Positions 1 through 12,711 of a DNA stretch of 37,358 nt are shown here, piece after piece. The notes below the pieces were generated by a model. The model worked only from the letters and a program-made list of their open reading frames with translations. It was not told the DNA's origin and searched no databases. The stretch comes from an uncultured Oscillibacter sp. (GTDB lineage Bacteria; Bacillota; Clostridia; Oscillospirales; Oscillospiraceae): NCBI RefSeq assembly GCF_947654275.1, contig NZ_CANTJS010000027.1, positions 1 through 37,358 of the forward strand. Direction: 5' to 3'. Each line of letters starts with the position of its first letter. Within the stretch, counting starts at the first letter, position 1. The translations under genes and the position numbers were made by a program.

Positions 1-74
1 GCGGCTGTCAATTCGACATAATTTTCTTGTGATACTTTACCGTACATGAGCATTTCTTGAGATTTGTGTTGTAA

Positions 75-107
75 GCTCTCCTTATCAACGATAAGGAGGG
101 CTTTTTT
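75..107 (+). promoter_or_regulatory. Hairpin with T-run that encloses the ribosome site of the ABC ATPase gene
   Basis: CTCCTTATC (78-86) pairs with GATAAGGAG (90-98), extended by GC/GC and one wobble pair to 75-101, and six T residues follow at 102-107. The start codon is the next base (108). The Shine-Dalgarno AAGGAGG (93-99) forms the 3' arm of the stem. The same structure could therefore act as an intrinsic terminator or hide the ribosome site. The structure is read directly; the regulatory role is inference. Confidence 0.6.
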
Positions 108-782
108 ATGAGAATTGAAGCCAAAGATTTGTCTAAAATTTACGGAAGCAGTGAAAACCAGATCATCGCTTTAGACAAGGTCAATCTGGGAATTGATGTG
201 AATGATTTTATTTCCATCATGGGGCCGTCGGGCAGCGGCAAAAGCACACTTCTCCATCTTTTGTCCGGGTTGGACAGGCCGACCTCCGGCACCCTGACCT
301 ATGACGGCAAAGACATATACAGCTTCAGCGATAAGGAACTGTCCAGCTTTCGCCGCCAGCGCATCGGTTTCATCTTCCAGCAATTTAATCTTTTGCCTGT
401 CTTGACGGCAAAAGAGAACATTATCATGCCCCTGCTTCTGGATAAGAAACAGCCGGATGAAGCGTATTTGGAGCAGCTTTCGCAGATGCTTGGCATCCAT
501 GACCGCCTGACCCACTTGCCCCACGAACTTTCCGGCGGACAGCAGCAGCGTGTGGCGATTGCCCGTGCGCTGATTGCTCGGCCTGACATTATCTTTGCGG
601 ATGAGCCGACCGGAAATCTGGACAGCAAAAGCGGCAGTGAGGTGATGGAGCTGCTGCAAAATATTTGGAAAAAGATGGGGACAAAGCTGGTTGTCATTAC
701 CCATGACAGCCGAGTGGCGCAGATGGCCGACCGCCAGTTTGTAATCGTGGATGGCGTTCTTTCGGAGGTGACAGCGAAATGA
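108..782 (+). CDS. ABC transporter ATP-binding protein, MacB/LolD type
   Basis: This 224-residue nucleotide-binding protein should power the FtsX-like permease encoded next to it. It shows Walker [10 protein letters not shown] (39-47), a Q-loop near residue 91, the signature LSGGQQQR (141-148), Walker B IIFADEP (161-167) followed by TGNLDS, and the switch histidine in VITHD. The length and the TGNLDSKSG sequence are typical of the MacB/LolD/BceA group, which exports or removes peptides and lipids at the membrane. Its last codon overlaps the permease start by four bases (ATGA), indicating translational coupling. Its ribosome site lies inside a hairpin. Base composition is lower in GC than the chromosomal genes, consistent with cargo of a mobile element. 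The substrate is unknown; antimicrobial-peptide resistance is a common role for such cargo but is not shown here. Confidence 0.93.
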
Positions 783-3271
783 AGTCCTATCGTGCATTGG
801 CACTCAAAGAAATCAAGGCGCAAAAGATGACCTTTACCCTGATTCTAATTGCCATTGTCCTTTCAACTATGATGACAGCGGTAATTGGACAATCTGCCGG
901 GGTACTGTCTGCCATGCGCCAGCAGCAGGCCATTACTTTGGGTGGCAATCGCTATGCAACATTTTTGCAGATGAATCAGGAACAGGTTGCGGCTTTACAA
1001 AATGACTCGCGGTTGTCTTTTGTCGGAGAATATGTCACTTTGGGAACAACGGAGCTTAATCCGTCCCTTTCCCTGGGGCTGAAGGAATATCAGGAAGATG
1101 TTGCCGCAATCTATCCTACAATCTCCCGACTAAAGGAAGGCCGGTTGCCGGAAGCACCTATGGAAATAGCGTTACCGGAAGATGTGCTGCAACACCTCGG
1201 TCTTGAAGGTAATTTGGGCGATCCGGTATCACTCTCACTATCAAAGGCCCTCCGTCACAATATTGAGATTTCCTCTTATGATTTTACTGCGGACTTTACA
1301 TTGGTAGGCATCTTGGAGAGCAATTATCTGAATTATACCTCTGGCGGCGTCACCGGCGTGGTGGGCAAGGGAACGGCAGCAACGCTGTTGCCGGAGAACT
1401 ATCTCTACTACAATGTGGATATTCGGACAACCGATAAAAATACGTTTCAAGAGACTGTGAATGACCTGATTTCTACACTGGGTGTCCATGAATTGGATAC
1501 TCTATATAATGTCCCCTATCTGGACGCTTTGGGTATCAGCTATGATGCTGGTGGGTCTGATACATCCAGCCAAGGATTCTCCCTTATGCTGGTAGCGGGA
1601 ATCATGGTCGGACTGTTGCTGCTGTTGGCGGCGGGATTGGTGATCTATAATATCTTGAAAATTGCAGTAGTACAGCGAATCAAGCAGTATGGAACTTTGC
1701 GAGCCATTGGTGGAGAGAAACGACAACTCTATTTCCTTGTGACGGGCCAAGTGCTTTTGCTCTGTGCGATTGGTATTCCGATTGGACTTCTGCTGGGAAC
1801 GCTGTCGGCAAAAGGAATCCTGACTGCCGCAACCAGTTTGGTTTCTCCAGAAATTTTTTTGGTGCAGAACAGAGATGAATTAAATCTTCTGATTGCAGAA
1901 AGCAACTCTGGCAAAGGTATTTTCCTGTTGGCAAGTGCGCTCATTACACTATTTTTTGCGTTTGTAGCAGCCATCCCGGCAGCTCAATATGCCGCAAAAG
2001 TATCTCCTACCGTGGCTATGGCGGGACGAAGTATCAAAATCAAACGGAGAAATCGGAAAACGAAGAAAATCCGTAATTTCGAGGCATTTTATGCCCGGCT
2101 TAATCTAAAGCGTAACCGTGGACGCACGGCAATTACGATTTTGTCCTTGGTTATGAGCATTACGGTCTTTATCGCATTACAAAGTTTCAGTTCTTTACTG
2201 GATGCTTCTTCCGCAATGCCAGATCATCTTGGTGATTACTCGGTTGTAAATGAATACGGCGGCATTTCTTCCAGTGAACTTGCCGCACTGGAGGCAAATG
2301 AAAATGTATCCGCTGTGGCAGCAGAGCAGTTTTCACTTTACCACTTGGATGAACAGTACCACCCCATTGGCATAGAAACCAGCATTACTTTAGGTGTTAG
2401 TGAATGCTTTCAAATCGTTGGCTTGAATGACCGCTGGATAGAGGATGAGTTCGCACAGCGTCTATCGCCGGAGCAGATGGAACAGTTAAAGGCCGGAGAA
2501 GGCTGTGTGATACGCAATCCAATTCCTATGCAGATTGGAGAAGAACATATTGGCACTACCCAAATCGAGGCAGGCACACACATTACTGTTGCGGGAAAAG
2601 AATTTCCGGTATTGTTATCGCTTGATGGGTATGACACCTATTTTAGCGTAGGCAACAACGGATTTACAAACGGTGTTCAAGTCCTGGTTAGTGATCGTCT
2701 ATACCCCCAACTTACCGGGATTGAGACTTACGCGGAACTGCGGCCAATCCTATCGGCAGATGCTGATCGGGGCGCATTTGACGAAGTGTTAGACCAGTTA
2801 TGCCAACGGATTCCAGGCAGTACGGTTATATCTTATGAGCAGACAGACCGCCAGCTTACAGAGAGTTTCGAGCAAATTCGATTGCTGGCCTGGGGACTGA
2901 TTTTATTTGTCGCTCTGATTGGTTTGCTGAACATCATCAATACTGTCTATACAAATATTCATACCCGTATTGCGGAAATTGGTATGCAGCGCGCCATTGG
3001 TATGAGTACAGGAAGTTTGTTCAAAGTGTTCTTATGGGAAGGAGCCTATTACGGCTTATTTGCGGCAGTGATCGGAAGTGTAGTCGGATATATTTGCACA
3101 ACTTTTGTAGAGGCCGCAGCAACAGATACTATTCAGTTGGTTGCTATTCCCATTATTCCAATCGCAGAGGCAACTGTTCTTGCGATTGGTGCCTGCTTGT
3201 TGGCAACGTGTATTCCATTGAGAAGAATTAGCAAAATGAGTATTGTGAATTCTATCGAAGCAGTTGAATAA
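779..3271 (+). CDS. ABC transporter permease with two FtsX domains
   Basis: This 830-residue membrane protein is the permease partner of the preceding ATPase; its ATG overlaps the ATPase stop. An N-terminal membrane segment (about residues 15-37) is followed by a large extracytoplasmic domain. A first FtsX core lies near 265-415 (GTLRAIG motif near 304-310), then a second N-terminal-type membrane segment near 450, a second extracellular domain, and a C-terminal FtsX core near 700-825 with GMQRAIGMS and a final [18 protein letters not shown] tail. The duplicated layout with two outer domains matches the long MacB/YknZ-like or Bce-like permeases of Firmicutes. No histidine kinase or response regulator gene is visible in the window, although such genes often lie upstream. 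The reading frame is intact. Confidence 0.9.
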
Positions 3272-3279
3272 AAAGAAAT

Positions 3280-3322
3280 GTCTGCCCAGCGGCAGAAAAG
3301 AAAAAACCGCTGCTGGGCAGAC
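3280..3322 (+). terminator. Inverted repeat after the ABC operon
   Basis: GTCTGCCCAGCGGC (3280-3293) pairs with GCTGCTGGGCAGAC (3309-3322) with one mismatch, separated by an A-rich loop. It starts nine bases after the permease stop. There is no clear T-run on the plus strand, so it may be a 3'-stabilising hairpin or a weak terminator. Confidence 0.5.
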
Positions 3323-3445
3323 CGATTTACCATGCCTATTTGTTCCATGCGGCGGTTTTAAGAGATTAAGCCGCCGTTCTTTTATCCCCCAAAAGAATGA
3401 CGCGGTAACGCTGGAAAGTACGGCGGCTGACAGGAGGCAGCCGCC

Positions 3446-3562
3446 ATGAAGTACATACCCGTTCGACACGATTTGACAGCATTTGAACCGTCAAAAAAAG
3501 CCCGTCCCCCGCCTGGGAGAACTGCGGCCACGAGGTTATACTATACAGTGCAGATAAGGTAA
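3446..3562 (+). CDS. Possible 38-residue peptide, unknown function
   Basis: An ORF of 38 codons begins at an ATG eight bases after AGGAGG (3432-3437) and ends at TAA 3560-3562. The predicted peptide starts MKYIPVRHDLTAFEP and is basic. I do not recognise it. The strong ribosome site is the main support. A hairpin with a short T-run follows 13 bases later and could terminate its transcript. It could instead be the leftover start of a longer gene lost during rearrangement of the element. The stretch 3323-3755 has no other credible gene. Confidence 0.35.
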   Translation: MKYIPVRHDLTAFEPSKKARPPPGRTAATRLYYTVQIR

Positions 3563-3574
3563 ATTATACTGTGC

Positions 3575-3613
3575 AACTCGCCCGGTGGGTCTACGACCTG
3601 CCGGGCGAGTTTT
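3575..3613 (+). terminator. Strong GC hairpin with short T-run
   Basis: AACTCGCCCGG (3575-3585) pairs perfectly with CCGGGCGAGTT (3601-3611), and GGTC/GACC extends the pairing within the loop. TTTT (3610-3613) overlaps the stem end. It separates the ABC block from the sigma-factor operon and is a plausible intrinsic terminator. Confidence 0.6.
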
Positions 3614-3755
3614 GTCGAATTTCGCCGCCGTCTAAAAATTTCCAAAAATTTTTTTCAAAAAGGGCCCATTTAGCGGGCAGCAAACGACAGCGGCGGTGTC
3701 TTGGTAGCGGAAAGGGAGAGGACCACCTTATCCCCCAACGAAAGGGGGTGAGAAA

Positions 3756-4187
3756 ATGGGATCGATCCCCCGCGACCATGACGAGCGGGTCCGCTTTGAC
3801 GCTTTCTGCAAGGCGGTCCTGCGAAACGAAGCCCGGAACCACATGCGGGACCTGCGCCGCCAGCGGAGGCATGAGACTTCGCTGGATGCTGTTCCGCAGG
3901 CGGAAATGGACAAGCTCTCCACGGCGGACCACTACCCCAGCGACAGCTTTGTGTTTTCCTCGCATGGGTATGACCTGCTGATCGACAACGAGCTTGTAGC
4001 CGACGCCTTCGCCGGTCTCCCTGCCACGGAGCAGAGCATTTTGATTCTGCGCTGTGTGCTGGACCTGACGGACGAGGAGATCGGCGGCCTCCTGGGAATG
4101 TCCAGAAGCGCCGTGCAGCGGCGCAGGACGAAAACCCTGGAAGGACTTCGGGCGAAATTGACGGCGTTGATGCCGAAGGGAGGTTGA
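3756..4187 (+). CDS. Short sigma-70-like factor of the mobile element
   Basis: The 143-residue protein has a C-terminal region resembling sigma region 4. Residues about 85-140 read LPATEQSILILRC, then DLTDEEIGGLLGMSRSAVQRRRTKTL, a typical helix-turn-helix for -35 recognition. The N-terminal part (residues 10-40) is basic and fits the short region-2-like segment of sigma-like proteins found in clostridial conjugative transposons. AAAGGGGGTGAG (3741-3752) precedes the ATG. It is followed after six bases by the HTH_16-type gene, so the two probably form one transcript. In such elements the protein is presumed to direct or modulate transcription of element genes; whether it works as a true sigma factor is not known from sequence. 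Confidence 0.8.
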   Translation: MGSIPRDHDERVRFDAFCKAVLRNEARNHMRDLRRQRRHETSLDAVPQAEMDKLSTADHYPSDSFVFSSHGYDLLIDNELVADAFAGLPATEQSILILRCVLDLTDEEIGGLLGMSRSAVQRRRTKTLEGLRAKLTALMPKGG

Positions 4188-5150: not shown

Positions 5151-5186
5151 AGGCAAGAAACGGTGACTGCCGGATTGGAGGCTATG

Positions 5187-5594
5187 ATGAACAGGCAGTT
5201 CGAGCAAATCACAGCGATTTATACCCGCGTTGACAGCGGAAAATATGATATGGAAGCGGCGATTTCCCAGCAGAAGGCCACTCTGTCCAAGTACGCGCAG
5301 GAACACGGCTTGACAAACATCCGCATTTATTCCGACTGCGGATTCAGCGCCTTTGATGATACGCGCCCTGCTTTTGTGAAGCTGGAAACCGACATTCGGT
5401 CCGGCAAGGTAGCAGTCCTTATCCTTTTTGACCTGACGCGCCTTTCCAGGGACTACATCATTATCAGCGAATGGATTGAAAAGTTTCTGCCCCGGCATCA
5501 TGTCGGCCTGTACTCCATTAAGGAGCAGATCACGCCGGAACGTCCCATTTCTCTTGCGCTGCCCATTGCGGCGCTGTTTGGAGGTGGACAGTAA
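5187..5594 (+). CDS. Small resolvase-fold protein lacking the catalytic serine
   Basis: This protein of about 135 residues contains only a serine-recombinase N-terminal domain. Position 12-17 reads YTRVDS, where active recombinases, including the neighbour, have Y-x-R-L/V-S. Asp16 therefore takes the place of the nucleophile, with Ser17 one residue out of register. The later DLTRLSRDY segment (the DMSRFGRNY equivalent) is kept. There is no recombinase domain, zinc ribbon or coiled coil. The start is ATG 5187 (or 5184), served by GGAG at 5177-5180; the GTG at 5163 has no ribosome site. Its stop TAA overlaps the next ATG (TAATG), so the two proteins are made together. A regulatory or directionality role is inference. 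Confidence 0.8.
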   Translation: MNRQFEQITAIYTRVDSGKYDMEAAISQQKATLSKYAQEHGLTNIRIYSDCGFSAFDDTRPAFVKLETDIRSGKVAVLILFDLTRLSRDYIIISEWIEKFLPRHHVGLYSIKEQITPERPISLALPIAALFGGGQ

Positions 5595-7237
5595 TGGCGA
5601 TTCTGCAAACGCTGGTTGAGAAGTGGGTTGCCCTCTACGTCCGCCTCTCCCGTGATGACGAGAATGAGGGGGACAGCAACAGCATTGCCCACCAAATTGA
5701 AATCCTGACCAAGTACGCCAGGGACCACGGCATTACCAACTACAAGATTTACAAAGATGACGGGTACTCCGGCACCAGCTTCAAGCGGCCTGGGTTCCAG
5801 GAAATGCTGACGGATATTGAGGCCGGGCTTGTCAGCATGGTCGTGGTCAAGGATATGTCCCGGTTTGGCCGGAACTATCTGGAGGTAGGGCTTTATACGG
5901 AAATCCGGTTTCCCGAGATGGGCGTCCGCTTCATTGCCGTCAATGACGGCGTGGACAGCGAGGATCAAAGCTCTAATGACTTCACGCCTTTCCGCAATAT
6001 CATAAATGAATGGTACGCGAAGGACACAAGCAAAAAGATTCGGGCCGTATTCCGTAATAAGGGAATGTCCGGCCAACGGCTGTCAACTAATGCCCCCTAT
6101 GGCTACACCAGGGCCGAGGACGGCCACCTTCTGATTGACGAGGAAACCGCGCCGGTGGTGGAGCTGATTTTCCAGTTATGCGTAGAGGGCAACGGCCCCG
6201 GCAAGATTGCCCGGATGCTGAAAGAGCGGCAAATCCCCACGCCGGGGACCATTGAATTTCAGCGTACAGGCCGAACTCGGCGCTATCACCCGGATGACCC
6301 TTGCCGCTGGGGAGCTGATACCATAGCGGATATTTTGGAGCAGGATGCCTACCTGGGCCGCACGACCAATTTCAAAACCGCTAAACTCTCCTATAAGTCC
6401 AAGAAGAAAATCAACAATCCCCCGGAGAAATGGGTAATCTTTGAAAATACCCACAAGGCTATCATCGACACGGAAACATGGGAGATCGTGCAGAAGGCCA
6501 GGGAGCAGCGCCGCCGCCCCACAAAAATGGGGGAAATGGGAATGTTCTCCGGGCTGGTATATTGCGCCGACTGCGGCGCAAAGCTGTACCATTGCCGGAC
6601 CGCATCTTGGACACATGAACAGGAGTGCTACACCTGTGCCAACTACCGCAACAGGAAGCAATGCTCCGCTCACTATATCCGGGCCGTTATTCTGGAGCGG
6701 CTGGTCCTTCAAAACCTGCAAAGGGTAGTGGCCTATGCCCAGGAGGACGAGGACGAGTTTGTACGGCGCGTTATGGAGAACAAGACCGCCGTACAGCGGG
6801 CGGAGCAGGAGCAGGCCAAGCGAACCCTGGAAAAGCAGGAGCGGCGGATCAACGGATTGGACGCCATCATTCAGAGGCTCTACGAGGATCACGTTATGGG
6901 TAAGCTGAACGCAGAACGGTTTGCGAAGCTGTCCGAGGGCTACGAGAAGGAACAGGCGGACTTGAAACAGTCTGTTGAAAACCTCCGGGCTATCGTAAAT
7001 GCCGCCGAAACCCAGGCCGTCAATGTCCAGAGCTTTCTGAAAATCGTGAAAAAGTACACCGAGCCCACCGAGCTGACCCCGGCAATTTTACGGGAGTTTG
7101 TGGAGAAGGTGGTCGTTCATGCCCCGGACAAGTCCAGCGGGCACCGTGTCCAGCGAATCGACGTACATTACACTTTCATTGGGGAGATCGACTTGTCCCC
7201 GGAGTATAGCAAGTACGAGAAAGAGACAACCGCATGA
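5594..7237 (+). CDS. Large serine recombinase (integrase/transposase of the element)
   Basis: The 547-residue protein should excise and integrate the element by double-strand cleavage through a serine. The resolvase domain is at 11-155 with Ser19 in YVRLSRDD, DMSRFGRNYLE, and the E-helix region. A recombinase domain follows (about 165-300, with APYGYTR and ADTIADILEQDAYLGRT). A zinc ribbon lies near 322-356 (CADCG...C...CYTC...C), then a coiled coil near 385-470 and a C-terminal DUF4368-like region. GGAGGTGG (5580-5587) precedes the ATG, which overlaps the upstream stop. The length, Zn ribbon and coiled coil match TnpX/TndX-type transposon recombinases. The frame is intact, so the element may still be mobile. 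Confidence 0.95.
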   Translation: MAILQTLVEKWVALYVRLSRDDENEGDSNSIAHQIEILTKYARDHGITNYKIYKDDGYSGTSFKRPGFQEMLTDIEAGLVSMVVVKDMSRFGRNYLEVGLYTEIRFPEMGVRFIAVNDGVDSEDQSSNDFTPFRNIINEWYAKDTSKKIRAVFRNKGMSGQRLSTNAPYGYTRAEDGHLLIDEETAPVVELIFQLCVEGNGPGKIARMLKERQIPTPGTIEFQRTGRTRRYHPDDPCRWGADTIADILEQDAYLGRTTNFKTAKLSYKSKKKINNPPEKWVIFENTHKAIIDTETWEIVQKAREQRRRPTKMGEMGMFSGLVYCADCGAKLYHCRTASWTHEQECYTCANYRNRKQCSAHYIRAVILERLVLQNLQRVVAYAQEDEDEFVRRVMENKTAVQRAEQEQAKRTLEKQERRINGLDAIIQRLYEDHVMGKLNAERFAKLSEGYEKEQADLKQSVENLRAIVNAAETQAVNVQSFLKIVKKYTEPTELTPAILREFVEKVVVHAPDKSSGHRVQRIDVHYTFIGEIDLSPEYSKYEKETTA

Positions 7238-8965: not shown

Positions 8966-9769
8966 TCAGGAATAAAAGCGGTGGCAGCCGATGGTCAGCT
9001 CATAGGTGCGGCTGGCATTGATCCACGCCCCCTGAGACAGGGCCGGCGCGTAGAAATAGAGGGAGTTTCCCGCTGTGGTCTCCCCCGCCAGAACCCGGCG
9101 GGCGGCCTCCATAGCCTGGTCCGAGGGGGCTTGGTACACCATTCCGTTGGCCACAGGCTCAAACTGAACCACGTCCTCCCCCGCCCCCTCGAAGATGACG
9201 GCGGGGATGGAGTCGGGAAAGTCCCCGCTCTCCACCCGGTTCAGCACCACGCTGCCCACGGCCATCTGACCCTCCAGGGATTCCGCGCCGCTCTCGGCGT
9301 AGATGATGCGGGACAGCCAGTAGTAGTCCACGGCGTCGTGCTCCGCCCCGGCGGTGGTGACCGCCGCGCCCCCCATCCAGGGGTCCCAGGCGGCGCTGCC
9401 CCCCAGGGCCTCCGCCGTCAGGCGCAGGGGCACATAGGTCCGCCCCTCCAGCACCGTCACGGCGGCAGGGCGGGTCTCGCCGTTCAGCGTCAGCGTATCG
9501 CGGTCCGGGTCGGCCGTCAGGCGCAGCGTCCCGCACTGGGATTCCGCCACCGCCGTTCCGGTCCCGCCGTCCCAGCGGACGGTCCAGCCGCCCATTGCTT
9601 CCAGCAGGTCCCGCAGGGGCGCGTAGGTCACGCCGCCGTCCAGATAGGCCGCGCCCTCCAGGGCAGCGCCGTCCACCTGTACCGGAACGGTCCGGGCGGC
9701 GCCCTCCGCCGAGACGGGCAGGCACAGGGCCAGCACGGCCATAATCGCGCTGAAAATTAGCTTTTTCAA
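8966..9769 (-). CDS. Cell wall hydrolase, SleB-type, with copper-amine-oxidase-like N-terminal domain
   Basis: The exported protein of about 267 residues should cleave or remodel peptidoglycan. From the TTG at 9769 (AGGAAAGG just upstream) it begins with a clear signal peptide, KKLIFSAIMAVLALCLPVSA. Next comes a stalk resembling the copper-amine-oxidase N-terminal domain (about 27-135; VTYAPLRDLLEAMG and RTYVPLRLTAEALG repeats). The C-terminal Hydrolase_2/SleB domain (about 145-267) has LSRIIYAESGAES with the conserved Glu, VGSVVLNRV and CHRFYS at the end. Family members act in spore cortex lysis or in vegetative wall turnover, and sequence alone does not separate these roles. The longer frame to 9799 lacks a ribosome site. 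Confidence 0.88.
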   Translation of the reverse strand: MKKLIFSAIMAVLALCLPVSAEGAARTVPVQVDGAALEGAAYLDGGVTYAPLRDLLEAMGGWTVRWDGGTGTAVAESQCGTLRLTADPDRDTLTLNGETRPAAVTVLEGRTYVPLRLTAEALGGSAAWDPWMGGAAVTTAGAEHDAVDYYWLSRIIYAESGAESLEGQMAVGSVVLNRVESGDFPDSIPAVIFEGAGEDVVQFEPVANGMVYQAPSDQAMEAARRVLAGETTAGNSLYFYAPALSQGAWINASRTYELTIGCHRFYS

Positions 9770-9804
9770 ACAGTTCCATCCTTTCCTGTGGGATATCACT
9801 GTCT

Positions 9805-9896: not shown

Positions 9897-9935
9897 AGAC
9901 ATCTCCACTCTCAACTCTTAACTCTCCACTCTCTT
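9897..9935. repeat. CTCCACTCTCAACTCT-type repeat at the end of the GatD-like gene
   Basis: The pyrimidine-rich stretch reads CTCCACTCTCAACTCTTAACTCTCCACTCTC in two steps of about 14 bases and overlaps the last codons of the GatD-like gene (RVES end). The same repeat type occurs at 16345-16392 at the end of the phosphoesterase gene. Confidence 0.65.
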
Positions 9936-10649
9936 TTTCAGCTGCTCTTCCGTCACAGCATATCCCTTTTCCGCCCATTCGTCTCCGGGCCGCTCCAGGG
10001 GCAGGGCCTCGCCCCGGCGGGCGTAGATGGCGGCGGCCACGGTCTCCAGCAGCTTGGGGTTCTTCACCAGCAGGGGGCCGGTGAGCTCCGAGGCAAAGAC
10101 GTTTTTCCAGTGGAAGCCCTCCGGCCCTCTCTCCGCCTCATTGCCCCAGCCCATTTCCACCTTTGACAGCAGCGGCGTTTCGACGCCGGAAATCACGGCG
10201 CACTTGTTCATAAAGCCCACAACCGCCTCGGGATAGAGCTCCGTATGGCCGTAGACGTCCCCCGTCAGCCGTTTCTTTCCCTGAACCGTGGTAAAGGACG
10301 CCAGGCCGATTCCCTCGTAAACCTCGCCGCCGGCCATGGCGACGGTCTTCCCCAGCAGCTCCATGGCGGTTCCGGCGAAGAGCATCACGGCGTTGTCCCC
10401 GGCAGCCTCCTTCACCGCCGGGCCGAACCGGGCGAAGTCCTCCGCGGCGAACCGCGCCTGGCCCTCTGTCCCCGCGCCCATGTAAAGGAAATCCGCTTTA
10501 CTGATATCCCCGTCACCGCCGGGGGCCAGGGTCTCCACCGTCACGGCGCAGCCCAGGCCCTCCAGATACCGCCGCAGGACGGCGATGTTGGCATAGCTGC
10601 CGTAAAGGCTCATCAAATCCGGGTAAACATGAAGAATCCGCACCTCCAT
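9918..10649 (-). CDS. GatD-like amidotransferase subunit lacking the catalytic Cys and His
   Basis: The 243-residue protein matches GatD (CobB/CobQ-type class I amidotransferase) in length and layout: LMSLYGSYANIAVLRR, FLYMGAGTEGQ, EVYEGIGLASF, KRLTGDV and GPLLVKNP. GatD normally frees ammonia from glutamine for MurT. Here the nucleophile segment ICGGYQ-LLG reads LFAGTAMELLG (Ala92 or Gly93 at the Cys position), and the YLHGP histidine segment reads ELTGP (Thr190). Both glutaminase residues are therefore gone. The ATG lies three bases after the MurT-like stop, with its ribosome site inside the upstream gene, so the pair is co-translated. Either the complex uses another ammonia source or the protein has become a structural partner. 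The C-terminal VES comes from an invading CT-rich repeat. Confidence 0.85.
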   Translation of the reverse strand: MEVRILHVYPDLMSLYGSYANIAVLRRYLEGLGCAVTVETLAPGGDGDISKADFLYMGAGTEGQARFAAEDFARFGPAVKEAAGDNAVMLFAGTAMELLGKTVAMAGGEVYEGIGLASFTTVQGKKRLTGDVYGHTELYPEAVVGFMNKCAVISGVETPLLSKVEMGWGNEAERGPEGFHWKNVFASELTGPLLVKNPKLLETVAAAIYARRGEALPLERPGDEWAEKGYAVTEEQLKKRVES

Positions 10650-10652
10650 GAC

Positions 10653-11981
10653 TCACCCCTCCTTTTCCACGTGGGCCAGCAGCTTGTCCCGGTCGGAGAA
10701 GCAGGTAACCACGTACAGCTCTTCGTCTCCGGCGGCCTTCAGCTCCGCCGCCGCCGCGGAGATATCCGGCGTGACAAACCAGTTTGAAAGCTCCGTAAAG
10801 GAGAACCGTTGGGCCAGGTCGCTGCAATACCGGCCGGAGAGAACCACCTTTTTCACGTGGGGGACATTCAGCTGGCCGAAGTCGATGTCCCAAAGCCAGC
10901 TGGTCTCGCTGGTAAAATACTTCCGGCTCACTGCGTCCACAATCACCAGCACGGAGCAGTCCGTTTTCCGTCCGGCGATATAGCGGAGGTTGGTGTCGTA
11001 GGCGATGGAATTCTCATGCTTGCTGGTCAGCAGGGTGCCGTGGTGGCCCCCCAGGCGGAAGGTCTGCATCCGCCCGTTTTTCAGCAGGTAGCTGCCGAGA
11101 ACCCCGGCGGCGGTCTGCTCTCCGACGCCGCACTCCCGGCAGGCGGCATAGGCCGCCAGAATGTTGTAGACATTATAGATGCTGGGGAAGGCCAGAGATA
11201 TTTTTGTGCCGCCGTCCAGAACAAGCTCGCACCGGTCCAGGTCCACCGCCGTGACGGTGTAGTCCGTCCGGGGCTTCTGGTGGCCGCAGGCGGGATTCGT
11301 GCAGCGGAAGGCCCCGATGTGGTTGTAGTGGACGTAATCGTATTCCATGGAACTGCGGCAGACCGGGCAGCGGGCCCCGTCGTGATAGACCCCGGAGGGC
11401 CTCTCCAGGTCGATGGCGCAGCGGTCCAGGCCGAACCACTTCACCCCCTCCCGCCCCCGTCCGAAGCAGGAGGACAGCGGATCGTCGGCATTCAGAATCA
11501 GCTCCGTGTCCGGGTGCAGGGCCGGGAGAATGGAGTCGTAGACCCATTCCGGGTGGCCGTTCCGGGTGAGCTGGTCCCGGTAGAGGTTGGTGACCACGAA
11601 CTCCGTGGGATGGAAGAACCGGAAGGTGTGGGCGGCATAGCGCTCGTCGGACTCAATGAGCAGCACGTCGGCCTTCACTCTTCCCCTCAGGTCGGCGTGG
11701 GTCAGCACCAGCGTCGTCACGCCCTCGATCTGGTTGGAGCCCTCCTCGTTGTAGACCACGGTTTTGCCGTCCGCCCGGAGAATGGAGGCAATCATCTCCA
11801 CCGTAGACGTCTTGCCGTTGGACCCGGTGACGGCGATGATGTGCTTTGGCAGCTCCACCCGTCCCAGGATGTCCGGGCAGATTTTCAGAGCCAGCTTGCC
11901 CGGCAGGGAGCTCCCTTTCCCCACCAGCTTTCCCGCGGCCCGGCCCAGTTTACACAATATGACAGCCAGAATCTTTCTCAT
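10653..11981 (-). CDS. MurT-like Mur ligase with altered C-terminal catalytic motifs
   Basis: The 442-residue protein matches MurT: P-loop TGSNGKTS (52-59), NEEGSN (78-83), VTNLYRDQLTRNG, LILNADDP (161-168), a four-Cys zinc site (Cys205, 208, 227, 232), and YNVYNILAAYAA. MurT with GatD amidates the alpha-carboxyl of D-isoglutamate in lipid II at the cytoplasmic membrane. In the C-terminal domain (DUF1727) the usual KNPAG segment reads KHENS (321-325). The ADGRDxSW segment, which supplies an Asp to the GatD triad, reads KYFTSETSW (354-362). SWLWDIDF is kept. The ATP- and substrate-binding core looks intact. It is followed at once by the equally altered GatD-like gene, so the two appear to have changed together. 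Confidence 0.87.
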   Translation of the reverse strand: MRKILAVILCKLGRAAGKLVGKGSSLPGKLALKICPDILGRVELPKHIIAVTGSNGKTSTVEMIASILRADGKTVVYNEEGSNQIEGVTTLVLTHADLRGRVKADVLLIESDERYAAHTFRFFHPTEFVVTNLYRDQLTRNGHPEWVYDSILPALHPDTELILNADDPLSSCFGRGREGVKWFGLDRCAIDLERPSGVYHDGARCPVCRSSMEYDYVHYNHIGAFRCTNPACGHQKPRTDYTVTAVDLDRCELVLDGGTKISLAFPSIYNVYNILAAYAACRECGVGEQTAAGVLGSYLLKNGRMQTFRLGGHHGTLLTSKHENSIAYDTNLRYIAGRKTDCSVLVIVDAVSRKYFTSETSWLWDIDFGQLNVPHVKKVVLSGRYCSDLAQRFSFTELSNWFVTPDISAAAAELKAAGDEELYVVTCFSDRDKLLAHVEKEG

Positions 11982-12042: not shown

Positions 12043-12711
12043 TCACCGTTTTCTCCTGTCCTTCTCAAAGTTCTCCCGCAGCTCCGCAAAGGCCCGGACG
12101 GGGGACCCGTCGGCGTTCCGGAACTTCAGGGGAATGGCGAAGAACAAGAAGTTCTTCCGGTCCCGGACCTTTTTCAGGCACAGGTTTTCCAGGCTCAGCA
12201 CCCCGGCCTTCAGCAGGATGTTGTGGACGGGGAGCCCGCCGTCCATCCGGTCGATGCTGATGGCGTCGGTGCCCACGCCCTTGAGGCCGCAGGAAGTCAG
12301 GTACCGGGCCGCCGCCTCGTTGGGAACCGGGAAACGGTCCTCCAGGAATTCCGGCCCGCCCCAGCGGTCCTCCCAGCCGGTGTAGAAGAGCACGAAGTCC
12401 ATGCAGTAGATGTCGTCATGCCGCTCCCGCAGAAACTCCTCCGTAATCACGTTCCCGGCCCCCAGGCCGGACACGTCCAGCACCGTGGCCCGGCCGGAAA
12501 ACTGGGACATGGGCAGCTGGTCCAGGGTGGCCCCGTCCCGCAGCAGATGGGCGGGGGCGTCCATGTGTGTGCCCGTGTGGGAGGACATGGTCAGCATGGT
12601 TTCCCGGAACCCGTCCCCGGTGAGGGTGCAGGCCGGAGGAAGGGCGGGAACCGGCGTGCCGGGGTACACGGGAATCTCCGGTGTGATGGTGTGCGTCAGG
12701 TCGATCAGCAT
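12043..12711 (-). CDS. Cyclase-family metal-dependent hydrolase (kynurenine formamidase-like)
   Basis: The 222-residue protein starts MLIDLTHTITPEIPVYPG and carries the family metal motif HTGTHMDAPAH (45-55). This group includes bacterial kynurenine formamidase and related amidohydrolases that bind zinc or manganese. AAAGGAAG precedes the ATG. It lies 61 bases upstream of the MurT-like gene in the same direction. No kynurenine-pathway genes are nearby, so the substrate cannot be inferred. Confidence 0.88.
   Translation of the reverse strand: MLIDLTHTITPEIPVYPGTPVPALPPACTLTGDGFRETMLTMSSHTGTHMDAPAHLLRDGATLDQLPMSQFSGRATVLDVSGLGAGNVITEEFLRERHDDIYCMDFVLFYTGWEDRWGGPEFLEDRFPVPNEAAARYLTSCGLKGVGTDAISIDRMDGGLPVHNILLKAGVLSLENLCLKKVRDRKNFLFFAIPLKFRNADGSPVRAFAELRENFEKDRRKR

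Follow-up and report, generated by a model that had tools for sequence, protein, structure and literature searches.

How does a MurT/GatD-type pair work once its glutaminase residues are gone, and does such a loss mark decay or a distinct kind of enzyme? The locus that raises this question lies in a 37,358-nucleotide stretch of DNA from an uncultured Oscillibacter sp. (contig NZ_CANTJS010000027.1; the window, below), in which adjacent genes encode a MurT-like Mur ligase and a GatD-like protein. We refer to the kind of pair found in the window as V1 and to other glutaminase-less kinds as V2 to V5. The pair has the following features.

10653..11981, minus strand: MurT-like Mur ligase (V1 type), 442 aa; open reading frame with MurT_C and Mur_ligase_M over the Pfam cut-off, phmmer and Foldseek matches
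11805..11825, minus strand: P-loop GSNGKTS, MurT residues 53-59, kept (alignments)
11553..11579, minus strand: GatD-facing loop of MurT, RDQLTRNGH, residues 135-143 (canonical RDQLDRYGE), with switches D139T, Y141N and E143H
11286..11369, minus strand: MurT zinc-ribbon Cys 205, 208, 227 and 232, kept; invariant in 55 V1 rows
11007..11021, minus strand: KHENS, MurT residues 321-325, replacing K--NP; in 53/53 tree rows and 80/80 named loci (the best 80 of 278 relatives)
10905..10937, minus strand: MurT loop DAVSRKYFTSE, residues 349-359, replacing the canonical DNxxDGxD loop (alignments)
10692..10706, minus strand: TCFSD, MurT residues 426-430, a V1-specific C-terminal motif (alignments)
9918..10649, minus strand: GatD-like protein without the glutaminase residues, 243 aa; open reading frame with GATase_3 over cut-off, phmmer and Foldseek matches
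10359..10376, minus strand: former nucleophile elbow of GatD, AGTAME, residues 92-97, with Gly93 at the Cys position (alignments)
10269..10271, minus strand: GatD Arg127, equivalent of S. pneumoniae Arg142, kept (phmmer alignment)
10080..10082, minus strand: GatD Thr190, at the catalytic His position (phmmer alignment)

By its domains, adjacent genes, P-loop, zinc-binding cysteines and fold, the pair is a member of the MurT/GatD superfamily. All three Pfam domains score over cut-off (MurT_C 63.2, Mur_ligase_M 45.8 and GATase_3 48.0 bits), and the nearest solved proteins are S. aureus MurT (phmmer E 1e-53) and, for GatD, its streptococcal and staphylococcal namesakes (E 2e-26 to 5e-20). In Foldseek comparisons of the single-chain models (mean pLDDT 97.0 for GatD and 89.9 for MurT) with the PDB, the top 9 matches of GatD were all GatD chains and the top 13 of MurT all MurT chains. 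The pair shares with MurT-GatD of S. aureus, S. pneumoniae and S. pyogenes the adjacent genes, the fold, the P-loop, the zinc ribbon and the GatD-contact residues Asp136 and Arg140. It differs from the lipid II isoglutaminyl synthase in lacking the GatD Cys and His, in its KHENS and SRKY loops, and in scoring far below the NCBIfam equivalog cut-offs (for GatD, 102.5 bits against a cut-off of 400 and 84.6 against 450; for MurT, 195 and 176.7 bits against 800 each). The initial annotation described the two genes as overlapping, which is not the case: the MurT stop codon TGA is followed by GTC and then by the GatD ATG, leaving a 3-nt gap.

The published MurT-GatD enzymes, as described in PMC6113224, PMC6085368 and PMC3266927, are of the glutamine-using type. 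The S. aureus catalytic triad is given as C94, H189 and D349, and catalysis is reported to be abolished by D349N, C94S and C94G (PMC6113224), while S. pneumoniae GatD Arg142 is said to aid glutamine capture (PMC6085368). By phmmer alignment, Gly93 (preceded by Ala at 92) occupies the place of S. aureus C94 (S. pneumoniae C107), and Thr190 that of H189 (S. pneumoniae H206); in the GatD model, a strand (88-92) and a helix (93-99) surround the former elbow. S. aureus MurT D349 aligns with Glu359. Two of the three triad residues are thus gone in the window pair and the third is a Glu, so that the proposal of a triad lost from both partners is supported for GatD and, as worded, not for MurT, where the Glu may or may not do the work of the Asp. 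The same applies to the MurT segment, ADGRD, thought to be missing together with its triad residue: the surrounding canonical loop is indeed gone, whereas the acid itself is present. With neither the Cys nor the His in place, the pair is, as far as alignment can tell, outside the glutamine-hydrolysing synthase.

These changes are shared. Of 150 genomes of the family searched for GatD, 90 gave a match; 30 loci, with the window among them, were aligned and comprised 15 of the window kind, 14 canonical pairs and one (L016) in which the Cys is lost and the His and a canonical MurT are kept. Searches with a MurT profile took in partly overlapping samples from the order (295 genomes), the class (291) and the phylum (299); the top score outside the class, 328.5 bits, belonged to a canonical pair (G933). 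Among the 67 MurT-family places of at least 150 bits in the order sample, motifs assigned 31 to V1 (G292 partial), 4 to V2, 11 to V3, 3 to V4, 1 to V5 and 17 to the canonical kind. Glutaminase-less kinds therefore make up 50/67 places, a figure in which canonical pairs could be under-counted, since a V1 profile served as query and scoring was limited to five candidates per genome, and in which the kind was read from MurT alone in G179, G191, G292 and G351, where no GatD was recovered (three of the 50, one canonical). Named hosts among the best 80 of 278 relatives include Oscillibacter valericigenes, O. ruminantium, Flavonifractor, Pseudoflavonifractor, a Dysosmobacter MAG and Ruminococcus bromii. 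The close homologues do not carry the canonical residues. At the GatD Cys position, 52 of the 53 V1 tree rows have Gly and one has Ser, and 78/78 partners found for the named loci (from the best 80 of 278 relatives) have Gly; position 190 is T in 27, I in 22, S in 2, L in 1 and V in 1 of the tree rows, with no His in these 53 rows or the 78 named GatD. Arg127 is kept in 53/53 and 77/78, respectively. Opposite D349, MurT 359 is E in 46 rows and D in 7. KHENS, reported as a replacement of KNPAG, sits at K--NPAG with two extra residues in every V1 tree row and named MurT. The GatD of L117 (G509) keeps its Cys and has an Asp where the catalytic His would be.

To place the kinds, we built a tree from 132 joined rows with the diagnostic columns removed (quick IQ-TREE, LG+G4, SH-aLRT only, midpoint root; amino-acid make-up differs in many rows, for which LG+G4 does not allow). 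A branch with SH-aLRT 99 has on one side 75 glutaminase-less rows (53 V1, the two relatives G459 and G508, and 20 V2-V4) and on the other 55 rows with the Cys plus two without it, G073 (L285) and G964 (L284). The 53 V1 rows group together, also at SH-aLRT 99. In G073 and G964 the GatD Cys was lost separately and the His, KNP and DGxD are kept, making them natural counterparts of S. aureus C94G. Both V1 genes are under purifying selection: across nine pairs dN/dS ranged from 0.045 to 0.299 in MurT and from 0.093 to 0.393 in GatD, with dS above 1 in several cases and one genome contributing two of the pairs. Because the changes are conserved together, the rows group without the diagnostic columns and selection is purifying, we agree with the initial annotation that this is a distinct subfamily rather than decay; a second pair was sought in the window genome and not found (see below).

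The two subunits have not changed alike. Within V1, mean pairwise identity is lower in GatD (0.38) than in MurT (0.53), the reverse of the canonical kind (0.49 and 0.40). Between the 55 canonical and the 53 V1 rows, GatD has one fixed-switch column, C93G, whereas in MurT 15 columns are at least 90% fixed in each kind, but for another state; the control, two canonical subclades about as deep, gave 1 and 1. Constraint was lost at 10 GatD columns in V1, against 0 and 3 in controls. The lower identity and lost constraint of GatD, together with the fixed loop switches of MurT, show that GatD has loosened while MurT was rewritten at its gate. This one-sided pattern holds for V1 and not for the whole glutaminase-less group, since in V3 (13 rows) the switches from the canonical kind number 6 for MurT and 7 for GatD. 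A count of 24 newly conserved MurT columns was dropped as evidence, a canonical subclade giving 19 by the same count.

Ten of the 15 MurT switches fall within three loops (139-143, 322-325 and 349-357), where gaps make the alignment less certain than elsewhere; for 349-359, the single-chain model has a pLDDT of about 54. These loops are described as facing GatD, the ATP ribose and the triad (PMC6113224, PMC6085368). Among the new residues are Arg353 (53/53 V1 tree rows) and a Lys or Arg at 354 (48 K, 5 R); acceptor-half positions E80, S82, Q84, E86 and R114 have also changed in V1. Other parts of MurT have stayed as they were. The P-loop and zinc site are preserved, as initially annotated, with residues 53-58 and the four zinc Cys invariant in 55 V1 rows together with Glu110, Asn132, Asp136, Arg140, Asn273, Arg304 and Lys321; Asn270 is found in 36/53. 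The roles of conserved MurT residues and of the GatD-facing loop have been described for S. pneumoniae (PMC6085368), and because the residues just listed and the zinc Cys are invariant, ATP-driven carboxyl activation is likely to be kept.

Does the pair stand alone in its genome? A second, canonical murT-gatD pair was not found in the window genome, where MurT_C has one match and GATase_3 one strong match, the other reaching only 19.6 bits, below cut-off; as the assembly is 93% complete, absence is unproven. A single MurT_C place over cut-off was present in 51/51 genomes tested (49 V1 and 2 relatives), some of them incomplete; G191 has an extra 79-aa MurT_C piece below cut-off. Within genus g290, two species have canonical pairs, three V1 and two V3, with one pair per genome. 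The single place per genome and the three kinds within one genus suggest that canonical, V1 and V3 pairs share one target carboxyl. G081, G095, G101, G104 and G692 each hold two or three V3/V5 pairs or part-pairs (L274-L282, L270, L271), and G933 holds a canonical and a strongly degenerate pair (L272, L273); from such multi-pair genomes, other members of the group may do other work. MurE has DNPR in G000 and G022 and DNPA in G251 (L238, L239, L240). We take DNPR to mark a diaminopimelate-type stem and DNPA another, so V1 seems to occur beside both.

A glutamate dehydrogenase gene near the pair had been thought suggestive, and is rejected as a partner since it occurs in 0/20 related neighbourhoods. 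Across the same 20, the cyclase was found in 2, mnmG in 5, a metallophosphoesterase in 7 and a 660-aa protein cluster in 4, the cell-wall hydrolase gene and the 112-aa membrane protein in none, and no third gene was common to more than 7 by either of two counts, with flanks short at some contig ends and, in one count, an antisense ORF sometimes chosen over MurT. In the window, one neighbour of the pair is a putative cyclase (12043-12711; arylformamidase-like, below the NCBIfam cut-off); the other, at 8966-9799, is a cell-wall hydrolase that carries a domain of the copper amine oxidase N-terminal type. Two ORFs at 5163-7237 resemble serine recombinases in translation and adjoin a region (1-4000) with a GC of 0.48, against 0.6 or more further on, possibly marking an integrated element.

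We favour, tentatively, a glutamine-independent MurT-GatD in which MurT uses free ammonia and GatD serves as a scaffold, a reading we regard as plausible if short of probable. MurT would bind ATP and activate a carboxyl, most likely the alpha-carboxyl of D-Glu in a lipid-linked cell-wall precursor. GatD would no longer hydrolyze glutamine and would be kept for its structure, completing both the complex and the gate through which the nucleophile reaches MurT. The nitrogen nucleophile, most likely free ammonia, would be taken up directly, and the three gate loops of MurT would have been rebuilt for this purpose. It is the simplest reading because S. aureus MurT/GatD-C94G is reported to lose glutamine use and to use ammonia at pH 8.5, and because neither S. 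aureus subunit works alone (PMC3266927, Table 2). Free ammonia and a scaffold role, offered as alternatives at first, need not be so, as that mutant is reported to combine both in vitro at pH 8.5. The shared absence of Cys and His, the tree branch, purifying selection, the kept MurT residues, the loosened GatD and the hint of a common target all lend support, and the exchange of kinds within a genus together with the C94G precedent favors ammonia as the nucleophile.

Two known systems and one mutant help to frame this proposal. Like the window pair, the S. aureus C94G laboratory mutant has Gly at the nucleophile position; unlike it, the mutant keeps the His and a canonical MurT and is reported to use ammonia only at pH 8.5 (PMC3266927). 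Human CPS1 has lost its Cys, uses ammonia and retains the dead domain (PMC4655335). It thus resembles the window pair in keeping an inactive glutaminase-like part and in the use of free ammonia proposed here, and differs in being an unrelated synthase with a Cys-to-Ser change, as described in the same paper. The MurT-like proteins of archaea (PMC11915815) are also MurT relatives without an active GatD glutaminase, yet the archaeal species with only a MurT-like protein have, by that account, no GatD homologue, whereas 78/80 named loci of the window kind (the best 80 of 278 relatives) have a GatD-like gene beside MurT.

Several observations speak against the free-ammonia reading. The S. aureus mutant is reported not to use ammonia at pH 7.5 (PMC3266927). 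The canonical MurT motifs of G073 and G964 indicate that the Cys can be lost with MurT left unrewritten, and 15 fixed switches are more than simple loss would call for, although the losses in those two genomes may be recent. Arg353 and Lys354 would be odd beside an ammonium path, the changed acceptor-half positions leave room for a different acceptor, and two or three pairs occur together in some genomes of the other glutaminase-less kinds. Minor effects reported for alanine at S. pneumoniae D139 or E143 (PMC6085368) mean that the V1 switches at these positions may matter little.

The main rival, which we consider possible but on the doubtful side, is that MurT joins an amine or amino acid other than ammonia to the same alpha-carboxyl, with its loops binding the nucleophile and GatD as a gate or binding subunit. 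The concentration of switches in the three loops, the kept Arg127 of the GatD pocket, and Arg353 with Lys/Arg354, which could bind a carboxylate, would all fit. In hhalign comparisons of small profiles, the KHENS loop aligns without gaps to MurE DYAHSP, two residues longer than canonical MurT; the rewritten loops, this MurE-like length and the Arg353/Lys354 pair favor another amine. MurE and MurF resemble the window MurT in ATP-driven ligation and, for MurE, in the length of the C-terminal loop, and are less similar to it in structure and sequence than MurT is. Against this reading, hhalign did not place MurE DNPR on SRKY and did not align MurD or MurC likewise at KHENS. The MurT C-terminal domain contains no MurE-type amino-acid motif (DNPR or DDPx), with the SRKY loop there instead, and exchange of three kinds within one genus would be easier with the same product. 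The idea that KHENS and CFSD are copies of MurD was discarded, no such alignment being obtained. The broader form of the amine-ligase reading strikes us as somewhat unlikely: here the whole glutaminase-less group, the window pair included, would link amino acids or other amines to the D-Glu alpha-carboxyl of lipid-linked cell-wall precursors, GatD having changed from a glutaminase into a gate or binding subunit.

It is unlikely that the pair instead modifies another carboxyl or Mur-type molecule and not the D-Glu of lipid II. The changed acceptor-half columns mean that the acceptor may differ, and the multiple copies of other glutaminase-less kinds point the same way, as do the canonical and degenerate pairs of G933, but in the 51 genomes V1 was not found together with another MurT_C place over cut-off, and V1 alternates with canonical pairs within a genus as expected for one shared target. 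A hidden glutaminase, in which other residues replace the lost ones, is very improbable. Candidates are Cys150 (33/53 tree rows and 71/78 named GatD from the best 80 of 278 relatives), Cys92 (2/53 and 6/78) or any Cys within 86-100 (10/53 and 16/78), and Arg127 is kept; however, none of these is conserved across V1, the ground on which Cys150 was rejected as a new nucleophile, there is no conserved His at 190, and C94G is reported to abolish glutamine use in S. aureus (PMC3266927). The annotation had asked whether another Cys and His might occupy the active site, and neither the 53 rows nor the 78 named GatD contain a conserved replacement Cys, the models being of single chains. Finally, decay or an assembly error in the window genome is rejected as extremely improbable, given the same residues in 80/80 named MurT and 78/78 named GatD found (best 80 of 278 relatives), dN/dS well below 1 and two open frames.

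Returning to the glutamine-independent ligase that we prefer, the superfamily is known and the glutaminase-less pair is a new variant within it; we found no report of such MurT-GatD pairs in the open-licence literature. Annotation of the pair as a glutamine-using enzyme is probably wrong, and with 50/67 MurT-family places of at least 150 bits in the order sample glutaminase-less, automatic naming may be wrong more widely. As for the host peptidoglycan, nothing was found in the open-licence literature beyond empty table entries of PMC11382707, a gut peptidoglycan review whose table gives no type for Oscillibacter or Ruminococcus. On the same grounds as the naming, amidated D-Glu may be wrongly inferred in Oscillibacter, Flavonifractor, Pseudoflavonifractor and Ruminococcus bromii.

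Whatever the nucleophile, these pairs represent a natural experiment in which an amidotransferase has outlived its own glutaminase. To our knowledge, the enzymes that substitute the D-Glu alpha-carboxyl in some peptidoglycan types have not been assigned. If the amine-ligase reading were true, the pairs would be candidates for that role, and gut Clostridia would possess a peptidoglycan-modifying ligase of a new class.
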